Positions 18,446 through 20,333 of a stretch of DNA of 20,347 bases are shown one piece after another. The translations under genes and the position numbers were made by a program. Positions within the stretch are counted from its first letter, which is position 1, and every line of letters starts with the position of its first letter. Below the pieces are notes generated by a model, which saw nothing but the letters and a program-made list of their open reading frames with translations, had not been told where the DNA came from and did not search any database. Source of the stretch: a virus. Where the stretch lies: positions 1-20,347 of the IMG/VR virus record IMGVR_UViG_3300036985_000876; one strand, given 5' to 3'.

Positions 18446-18731
18446 GATACTCCACAAATTTATTGTCTAACTGTTTTATCACTTCAATTACTGTTTCTGG
18501 GAATTTGTATCTTTCGATCGCACCCCATATAACAGTAATTGGTATGTGACCAATTGCCATCCCCATCTGTCTAGAATTAGAAAGATCAAAAAATACACTC
18601 AAAACTAATTCTTCACCAGAAGACAATTTAGGTTTTTTGTGTTCTTCTTTTACTTTCCCTTGCTTCTCTAAAACATCATAGAACTTCTCTTTACCGCTCC
18701 ACTGCAAAAACCATTGTAGAGCGGATATTAG
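18429..18731 (-). CDS. T-like frame, made as a G-T tail chaperone fusion by -1 frameshift
   Basis: This frame lacks a credible start of its own: the first in-frame candidate is a TTG at 18707 without a Shine-Dalgarno sequence. It is the -1 frame of the preceding gene and is open through the slippery site A AAA AAC at 18731-18737. After slippage the ribosome reads CTA ATA TCC GCT (LISA...) and adds 100 residues, giving a G-T fusion of about 220 residues. The T part (LQWSGKEKFYDVLEKQGKVK, then GMAIGHIPITVIWGAIERYKF) sits exactly between G and the tape measure, where lambda T lies. In lambda the fusion binds tail tube subunits and bridges them to the tape measure, and the G:GT ratio matters for assembly. 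Sequence similarity to lambda T is not evident by eye; the assignment rests on position and the frameshift signal. Confidence 0.85.
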   Translation of the reverse strand, partial: LISALQWFLQWSGKEKFYDVLEKQGKVKEEHKKPKLSSGEELVLSVFFDLSNSRQMGMAIGHIPITVIWGAIERYKFPETVIEVIKQLDNKFVEYHGKSN

Positions 18732-18737
18732 TTTTTT
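18694..18737 (-). promoter_or_regulatory. Programmed -1 ribosomal frameshift signal (slippery heptamer plus hairpin)
   Basis: On the leftward strand: the slippery heptamer A AAA AAC (18737-18731), in register with the G frame (GCA AAA AAC TAA); a 6-base spacer that starts with the G stop codon (18730-18725); then a stem of CCGCTCTAC (18724-18716) with GTGGAGCGG (18702-18694), nine pairs with one G-U, and a 13-base loop. All three standard parts of a -1 frameshift signal are present at the expected spacing. Confidence 0.88.
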
Positions 18738-19090
18738 GCTTCACCGTCCAGTCTTTGCTCATAAGTTGGAAGCAACTCTTGAACTTTAGACCAAAGCTCT
18801 TCAATAACAAGAGGATAATCTTTAAAGAATGTTTCTGGATTATCAACCCCTTCTAACTTCAAAATGCAGGATTCGATCAATTCAGTTCTTTGAGCTTCCA
18901 TTACATCAAATGGATTAGCTTCAAATTTACCGTCTTGTGTCATCGGCAATCTTTTAGCCCAACCAAATGCAAATTTCCTATTTGAAGAAATCGGCATTGC
19001 GACTGTAATCTTTACTTCAGGTGCATCATCAAGTGTAATTAAAACACCTTCTGTTAAGCACAATGGTAATTTGTATTTATCTAAACTCAT
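18728..19090 (-). CDS. Tail assembly chaperone, G-like
   Basis: 120 residues from the ATG at 19090 (MSLDKYKLPLCLTEGVLITL), with GGAG six bases upstream (19097-19100). The frame extends back to a TTG at 19114, but that would begin inside the inverted-repeat element and has no Shine-Dalgarno sequence. The N-terminal half is beta-rich and the C-terminal half helical (NPFDVMEAQRTELIESCILK; FFKDYPLVIEELWSKVQELL). Position between tail tube and tape measure, length, and the frameshift site just before its TAA mark it as the G-type chaperone that coats the tape measure during tail assembly and is absent from the finished virion. The same start yields both G (about 120 aa) and G-T (about 220 aa). Confidence 0.85.
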   Translation of the reverse strand: MSLDKYKLPLCLTEGVLITLDDAPEVKITVAMPISSNRKFAFGWAKRLPMTQDGKFEANPFDVMEAQRTELIESCILKLEGVDNPETFFKDYPLVIEELWSKVQELLPTYEQRLDGEAKN

Positions 19091-19178
19091 TTCTCTCTCC
19101 GTCCTCTCTGTCAAATTGGTGGGTGCGGATTAGGCTGACAGAGAGAAAGCCGTTTACGAATAAATCGCTCCGCACCCA
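19090..19178 (-). promoter_or_regulatory. Intercistronic RNA element with interleaved inverted repeats
   Basis: The 94-base spacer between tail tube and chaperone genes holds two perfect 10-bp inverted repeats that interleave. Stem A pairs 19120-19129 with 19169-19178 (TGGGTGCGGA/TCCGCACCCA on the plus strand); stem B pairs 19104-19113 with 19136-19145 (CTCTCTGTCA/TGACAGAGAG). The order A, B, A', B' permits an H-type pseudoknot or alternative single hairpins. A third 9-bp complementarity (19140-19148 with 19090-19098) would let an arm of stem B instead cover the chaperone Shine-Dalgarno region and the first base of its start codon. No U tract follows, so it is not an ordinary terminator. Confidence 0.6.
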
Positions 19179-19184
19179 AAGACT

Positions 19185-20333
19185 TTAGATCCAGTAGATA
19201 TCCAAATAACCTGCAGTTACAGATTTAGCTGAACCTGTAAATGCGATACTTACTTGTTGATCCATACCAGCTGATGAAGGGTCAGGGAAACTCAACTGAG
19301 CACCATGAACAACAACACCAATACCACCATTATCATTAATCGCTGTGTAGCCAATCATAACAGGTGCTTGAGAAATCTTCTTAGCCATTAATGACCAATC
19401 TGAATCAGCTAAATAAGCTGAACCAGAGATTTCAACAGCAGCAGTTCCTAATGAATAGTTCTGAGGAGCCAACTCACCCAAACAAACACTTGGTGTCATT
19501 CCGTTTGAGATAGTCAAATTCAAATTCTGAATACAGAATGTTGCAGGAGCACCCTCAACGAAAACAGTACCAACATCAGAAGAAGCATTTAATGGTTGAT
19601 CAGTGCCAGCTGCAAGAACTGTACGACCATCAGTCATAGGAACAGTTGGAGTTTCATATCCATTACCCATGAAGCTGAAAACTGCATTTGCAATAGAACC
19701 ATATTCAAAATTCAAAGCAAAAGAATTTACAAGCATACCACGGTATGAAATAGTCTTGTCTGTTAAGTCTTGGAAATCTTTCTCAATGCTAAAAGATTGC
19801 TCAGAAGTACCAACTTGAACACGAAGTGGACGAGTGATAGTTGCAGAAGCATCAGTTTCACTAGCAATTGTCTCTTTAGAAACAGTGATAGTTGTGCCAA
19901 CGATGTTTGTGATGTAAGCAGTACCATTATTTCTTTCATCTGTAAAGTTTGAAAGAATAACTAGGTCGCCAATTGCAAAGCTAGAAGCATTTGTAACACC
20001 AGCAATTGTCTTACCAATAGCTGTTACAGTTAATGAACCTGTAAATGTTACAACTGCTGTCCATGCAGCTTGCATCATACCAGCACGAAGAAAATCTTTA
20101 ATAGCAACATCACCAGATAACTCTGTATTGATATCACCACCGACATCTAAGCCAACTTGCACTTGACCAGCTGATTTGCGACTTGCCTGAATTTCTTCAG
20201 AAGTTGCAATCTGTGGTGTTCCAGAAAGCGATTCAGATGTGAATCGGGCAGTTTGAAAATCTCCACTCGCTGGCGTCGTGCCATAAGTGGCTTCAGCAAT
20301 ATATGCCAAACGAACTAGATTACTTGAACTCAT
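19185..20333 (-). CDS. Major tail tube protein (Phage_tube_2-like)
   Basis: 382 residues. The N-terminus NLVRLAYIAEATYGTTPASG, then FTSESLSG, EEIQASRKSAGQVQVGLDVG and GDINTELSGDVAIKDFLRAG matches the tail tube family seen in many siphophages (Phage_tube_2). Residues about 95-170 contain a small beta insert (KTIAGVTNASSFAIGDLVIL, RNNGTAYITNIVGTTITVS) of a kind that recurs in this family. From about 175 the tube-fold strands resume (SFSIEKDFQDLTDK, YRGMLVNSFALNF, VFSFMGNG), and it ends AGYLDIYWI. Hexameric rings of it would stack around the tape measure. AAGGAG at 20340-20345, six bases from the ATG, is the strongest ribosome binding site in the window, as expected for the most abundant tail protein. 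Confidence 0.88.
   Translation of the reverse strand: MSSSNLVRLAYIAEATYGTTPASGDFQTARFTSESLSGTPQIATSEEIQASRKSAGQVQVGLDVGGDINTELSGDVAIKDFLRAGMMQAAWTAVVTFTGSLTVTAIGKTIAGVTNASSFAIGDLVILSNFTDERNNGTAYITNIVGTTITVSKETIASETDASATITRPLRVQVGTSEQSFSIEKDFQDLTDKTISYRGMLVNSFALNFEYGSIANAVFSFMGNGYETPTVPMTDGRTVLAAGTDQPLNASSDVGTVFVEGAPATFCIQNLNLTISNGMTPSVCLGELAPQNYSLGTAAVEISGSAYLADSDWSLMAKKISQAPVMIGYTAINDNGGIGVVVHGAQLSFPDPSSAGMDQQVSIAFTGSAKSVTAGYLDIYWI

Follow-up and report, generated by a model that had tools for sequence, protein, structure and literature searches.

The window analysed here is a virus record of 20,347 bases, and the element lies on its minus strand, in the 94-nt intergenic gap that separates the stop codon of a tail tube gene (19187-19185) from the ATG of a tail assembly chaperone gene (19090-19088). 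The chaperone gene carries a slippery AAAAAAC (18737-18731, minus strand) just ahead of its stop codon, and the -1 frame then enters the Phage_TAC_18 domain. As read from the sequence, the slippery site and the extension appear to form a programmed frameshift of the G/GT type, the usual arrangement at such loci, so that the gene names given in a first-pass annotation of this DNA, tail tube and chaperone, stand (PF18906/phrog_290 and PF23812/phrog_3817, respectively). The genes and the parts of the element are as follows.

19185 to 20333, minus strand: tail tube protein coding sequence, 382 aa (PF18906 Phage_tube_2; phrog_290)
19169 to 19178, minus strand: 5' arm of stem S1 (A), TGGGUGCGGA, beginning 7 nt past the tail-tube stop codon; supported by covariation
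19133 to 19151, minus strand: short apical stem around B, GGC (19151-19149) with GCC (19135-19133), from sequence reading and prediction
19136 to 19145, minus strand: 5' arm of stem S2 (B), CUCUCUGUCA, within the S1 loop; could alternatively pair with the Shine-Dalgarno
19120 to 19129, minus strand: 3' arm of S1 (A'), UCCGCACCCA; supported by covariation
19114 to 19119, minus strand: L3, CCAAUU, the 6-nt linker from S1 to B' (5-8 nt in most other lineages)
19104 to 19113, minus strand: 3' arm of S2 (B'), UGACAGAGAG, ending 13 nt before the AUG
19097 to 19100, minus strand: chaperone Shine-Dalgarno GGAG, 3 nt past S2 and 6 nt before the AUG
18728 to 19090, minus strand: tail assembly chaperone coding sequence, 120 aa, ATG start, ending with the slippery AAAAAAC and then UAA
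18429 to 18707, minus strand: C-terminal extension of the chaperone in the -1 frame (PF23812 Phage_TAC_18; phrog_3817)

The two perfect 10-bp repeats in A-B-A'-B' order that the annotation had reported for this gap are present. On the coding strand, A (19178-19169, TGGGTGCGGA) pairs with A' (19129-19120, TCCGCACCCA) to form S1, and B (19145-19136, CTCTCTGTCA), which sits in the S1 loop, pairs with B' (19113-19104, TGACAGAGAG) downstream of the hairpin to form S2. When G-U and flanking pairs are included, S2 reaches 13 bp (19147-19135 with 19114-19102) and the connecting loops become 5 nt. Since B' and the Shine-Dalgarno region are imperfect tandem copies (the copy at the Shine-Dalgarno being GACGGAGAGAG), B is able to pair with the Shine-Dalgarno as well in the four main lineages; in the window the computed energy of this pairing is -16.8 kcal/mol, and that of the Shine-Dalgarno with the anti-Shine-Dalgarno is -6.6 kcal/mol. 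In order to evaluate chance, the gap was shuffled 3000 times with dinucleotide composition preserved. Interleaved perfect Watson-Crick pairs of at least 6 bp arose in 4.5% of the shuffles and of at least 7 bp in 0.3%, and none arose at 8 bp or more or at 10 bp or more, in agreement with the earlier judgement that such pairings are unlikely by chance. Stacking energies sum to -45.6 in the best knot, well beyond the values of 400 shuffles (mean -19.7, sd 4.1), and when S1 was held fixed and only the loop and downstream sequence were shuffled, S2 gave p 0.0005, which is the floor of the test. Two interleaved helices in this gap thus pair beyond chance, as expected of an RNA pseudoknot, and coincidence is excluded as the source of the pairings in the window.

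A canonical H-type knot has a short L1, an L2 near 0 and an L3 whose length suffices to span S1. With connecting loops of 23 (L1), 6 (L2) and 6 nt (L3), the knot of the window and its close relatives does not appear to be of this type, as it holds 23 nt and 6 nt inside the loop and 6 nt across the 10-bp S1. S1, the apical stem and S2 may be unable to coexist in these sequences; for an L3 of 6 nt the extended hairpin as a whole is long, and the apical stem would have to open or the hairpin to bend. Three relatives (L005, L006 and L059) have a stem of 7-9 bp where the window has its short apical stem. A rough energy sum, with -24.0 for S1 when the S2 bases are left free, -15 to -19 for the S2 duplex and an assumed knot penalty near 9, equals or beats the best nested fold (-29.4). 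In nested folding the Shine-Dalgarno is mostly free (paired probability 0.10-0.22), so that any repression must come from S2.

To follow the helices through related phages, eight relatives were aligned with MAFFT in a structure-free manner. In L002-L004, whose tail tube proteins are 92-96% identical, both arm pairs are nearly unchanged; the loop from A to B is rewritten and lengthened in close relatives, and the arms are conserved in L003 and L004. In L005, L006 and L032 (tail tube 59-60%) and in L059 (56%) the arms have different sequences and the pairing is retained. S1 pairing was found in 100% of the alignment cells, with double changes at 6 of the 10 pairs, amounting to 18 cells compared to 6.6 in shuffles and 0 in slid registers, where cells count sequences and not events and the changes separate about four lineages. 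The comparison of S2 rests on arms matched by hand, because MAFFT misplaces B; these arms are CUCUCUGUCA/UGACAGAGAG in the window, GUCUCUCCU/AGGAGAGAC in L059, CCUUUCA/UGAAAGG in L006 and CUUUCA/UGAAAG in L005, and taken alone S2 was not significant in either L005 (p 0.16) or L006 (p 0.12). Compensatory change was found in both helices, for S1 by formal count and for S2 on the hand-aligned arms only. Arms that change without compensation in relatives had been named beforehand as evidence against the structure, and here S1 stood in full and S2 in part, since L002 and L004 each keep 9 of 10 S2 pairs with one uncompensated terminal mismatch in B', and in the sister clade L034-L039 S1 is kept while the pairing of the loop to the ribosome site is weak. 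Overall, the pseudoknot that had been proposed as possible is conserved by compensatory change, and the structure is well supported by comparison of the sequences.

The rewriting of arms with pairing kept is a mark of RNA, because a DNA site would keep its sequence. Inverted repeats do occur as DNA features, including sites for DNA-binding proteins, and a separate perfect palindrome is present in phiCbK-like gaps; nevertheless, we give very little credence to a DNA-level feature or a coincidence at this position, chance being excluded by the shuffles and the covariation. A scan of the window for promoter-like sites found none.

Other phages with a PF18906 tail tube show this arrangement again in unrelated sequence, with a hairpin loop paired to the stretch immediately 5' of the chaperone Shine-Dalgarno. 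We found it in the cultured phages R5C, Pan1, RpAliso, CcrColossus, phiCbK, Cp1R7A-A1, EliS-L02, DSS3P8 and Bajun, in the metagenomic contigs L013, L043, L045, L046, L048, L077 and L011, and in the genome loci L213/L214 (titled Micavibrio MAG) and L240, with a gap-wide shuffle p of at most 0.02 in the distant phages. As controls, the gaps that precede the tail-tube gene gave p 0.10-0.94 in eight of these cultured phages, and another control gap (Mwe_2) gave p 0.02. The knot is near-canonical H-type in phiCbK, CcrColossus, Cp1R7A-A1, EliS-L02, Pan1 and L013, with an S1 of 8-12 bp and an S2 of 6-8 bp; in the five cultured phages of this set L1 is 1-2 nt (to 3 nt when L013 is included), L2 0-1 nt and L3 5-8 nt. 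In 21 tabulated cases the distance from the end of the S2 3' arm to the start codon is 6-21 nt, and mostly 9-17 nt; this spacing and the near-100% self-pairing of the distant arms are descriptive only, because the arms were picked by complementarity in a scan range of 2-45 nt. A formal covariation count does not extend to the distant gaps, as MAFFT puts S1 of phiCbK and CcrColossus out of register, and independent support comes from shuffling each gap and from the covariation count within the clade. A pooled Fisher value over the gaps draws on related phages and on a set that had been inspected beforehand, and does not stand for a probability. The gaps of L056/L057/L072, L060/L178, L061 and L145 did not fit the knot model. 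One further locus (L074) has a knot and was left uncounted, since its downstream gene is unlike the chaperone. By sequence similarity, blastn of the element region against cultured phages gave no match, a search with the chaperone protein returned near-identical contigs only, and a search of genome contigs with a closer alignment returned a single genome locus.

In most of the alphaproteobacterial members the loop is approximately GUCGGG and its downstream partner approximately CCCGAC, with freely varying stems. Conservation of this loop together with several CCCGA copies, and the precedent of gp32 in T4 (PMC3014915), would fit a protein operator, where free tail tube, chaperone or another phage protein would bind the knot or the repeats complementary to its loop and thereby repress the chaperone message. 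However, no loop sequence is common to the window clade and the alphaproteobacterial group, and an RNA-binding domain was not found in the two flanking proteins; we consider such an operator improbable.

The S2 target is duplicated on the 5' side of the hairpin in L013, L045, L043, L046, L077, Pan1, RpAliso, DSS3P8, CcrColossus, phiCbK, Bajun, Cp1R7A-A1, EliS-L02 and L214. This extra copy starts 0-2 nt past the tail-tube stop codon in L013, L045, L043 and Pan1, 9-10 nt past it in L046, L077 and L214, and tens of nucleotides past it in the others; the window has no upstream copy. That the loop faces two competing targets suggests a switch between 1:2 and 2:3 pairing. We tentatively raise the possibility of a recurrent class of switches in phage late operons, in which the loop would pick either the segment upstream of the hairpin or the one at the chaperone Shine-Dalgarno, and the traffic of ribosomes leaving the tail-tube gene would set chaperone translation with no protein or ligand; the window would then be a reduced form whose targets are B' and the Shine-Dalgarno.

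Several gaps in these relatives contain additional repeats. In L141, L135 and L150 a perfect palindrome, CTCAGCGCTGAG (CTCACCGGTGAG in Bajun), lies between the upstream CCCGA copy and S1 and itself shows compensated changes. L141 and L135 have more CCCCGA/CCCGA copies, located between the Shine-Dalgarno and the AUG and in the loop of the hairpin that comes first past the tail-tube stop, giving their S1 loop up to four possible partners. In the L211 and L147 gaps the hairpin loop is UUGGUCGG, and two tandem copies of CCGACCAA are located at the Shine-Dalgarno; L211 also has an upstream hairpin with CGACCAA in its loop, a possible kissing loop, and the CGACCAA hairpin is kept in Azospirillum phage Cd. 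The gap of L220, a prophage-like locus, is flanked by a 24-nt near-perfect inverted repeat (CCCUCUCCCCUUGCGGGAGAGGGU) that looks like a different repeat element.

Other relatives have a different device at the junction. An intrinsic terminator, consisting of a hairpin and a U-run, is found in the same gap in Vibrio and Acinetobacter phages, in JenP1 and in many contigs at approximately 40% tail-tube identity; the loci that have it include L040, L063, L065-L068, L073, L139, L140, L144 and many more. Nine terminator gaps gave p 0.04 to 1 in the knot test, or no knot. Three loci (L180, L188 and L200) have an anti-Shine-Dalgarno (CCUCC; in L200, 13 nt complementary to the ribosome-binding site of the chaperone) upstream of or inside the terminator loop, which suggests long-range masking combined with a terminator. 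Many other relatives have no gap between the two genes. Among 385 genomes of one class, surveyed as unselected alphaproteobacterial prophages, 46 had the tail-tube family, and the best 30 loci were mostly abutting genes, with a knot in two (L214 and L240). Since most of these prophage junctions are gapless, tail assembly does not as a rule require the element, which is one of several devices at this junction and is not universal.

The true terminators in exactly the same gap of several relatives might suggest that the hairpin of the window likewise pauses or terminates RNA polymerase between the two genes, and a partial stop of transcription had been one of three functions offered in the first-pass annotation. 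This suggestion did not hold up, as neither stem is followed by a U-run, a terminator scan of the window was negative, and the pairing of the loop to downstream RNA has no role in intrinsic termination; we regard transcriptional attenuation by the element as highly improbable. A second offered function was stabilization of the upstream message, whereby tail-tube mRNA, once processed, would be capped by the knot at its 3' end, shielded from 3' exonucleases and so outlast the downstream message. The site directly follows the most abundant tail gene, S1 is strong, and the terminator hairpins at the same place in other relatives also protect 3' ends. However, a plain hairpin would suffice for this purpose, and stabilization leaves unexplained both the constant place of the loop partner by the chaperone Shine-Dalgarno and the covariation of that partner, making it an unlikely account.

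The remaining offer, control of chaperone translation, appears from the sequences to fit best, and it is favored because the downstream arm of the knot adjoins the Shine-Dalgarno in every knot-bearing lineage. The terminators at the same junction in sister lineages further suggest that a drop in downstream expression is the shared purpose. We consider it probable that the element is a translational attenuator that holds chaperone synthesis low relative to the tail tube. The S1 hairpin would display the pyrimidine-rich loop B, which would pair with B' directly 5' of the chaperone Shine-Dalgarno or with the Shine-Dalgarno instead; the folded knot would put the S2 helix against the ribosome-binding site and slow the loading of the 30S subunit, so that one transcript could yield much tail tube and little chaperone. 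Folding of the knot in the cell, reduced initiation as its consequence and selection acting on stoichiometry are all inferred here. A position 7 nt past a stop codon is within reach of the terminating ribosome, and the start of S1 at this distance makes coupling to tail-tube translation possible. In long-tailed phages the tail tube is made in far larger amounts than the chaperone although the genes are adjacent, and such wide tuning of adjacent genes in one message is mostly unexplained beyond the frameshift of lambda. As phiCbK and other laboratory phages have a knot where ribosomes would load on the chaperone message, and other relatives have terminators in its place, the proposal is directly testable.

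The annotation had also stated that no named element matches, and this agrees with our searches. Rfam, at gathering and permissive thresholds and with riboswitches and phage motifs included, gave no family match and chance-level hits only, and a description of the element was not found in open-licence papers, which given that scope is weak evidence of novelty. The phiCbK genome paper covers the tail-tube gene, the chaperone and its frameshift, and the words stem-loop, hairpin and pseudoknot were looked for in its text and not found (PMC3556154). The G/GT-type -1 frameshift signal of lambda belongs to the same chaperone gene, whose end in the window is the slippery AAAAAAC. Approximately 370 nt separate this site from the knot upstream, which therefore does not act as its stimulator. 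Translational riboswitches such as SAM-II and preQ1 are H-type knots whose 3' strand includes or borders the Shine-Dalgarno. In contrast to these, the element has no conserved ligand pocket, its stems and (in the window clade) its loop are freely rewritten, and it has no Rfam match. The ermC and trp attenuators choose between alternative pairings of segments 1:2 and 2:3, and in the distant group the loop can likewise pair with a copy upstream of the hairpin or with a copy at the Shine-Dalgarno; unlike ermC and trp, the element is preceded by an entire structural gene in place of a leader peptide, and the window has no such upstream copy. The element resembles the pseudoknot in the gene 32 leader of T4, T2 and RB69 in being a phage mRNA knot located 5' of the gene whose translation it would control. 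A 2010 review described the T4-type gene 32 knot as perhaps the sole viral example in translational autoregulation (PMC3014915), and the present element would considerably widen the set of phage regulatory knots. In gene 32, approximately 67 nt separate the knot from the start codon, and the knot is where cooperative binding of gp32 is nucleated (PMC3014915), whereas the element described here occupies a gap between two late-operon genes, no protein is known for it, and its own 3' arm abuts the ribosome-binding site.
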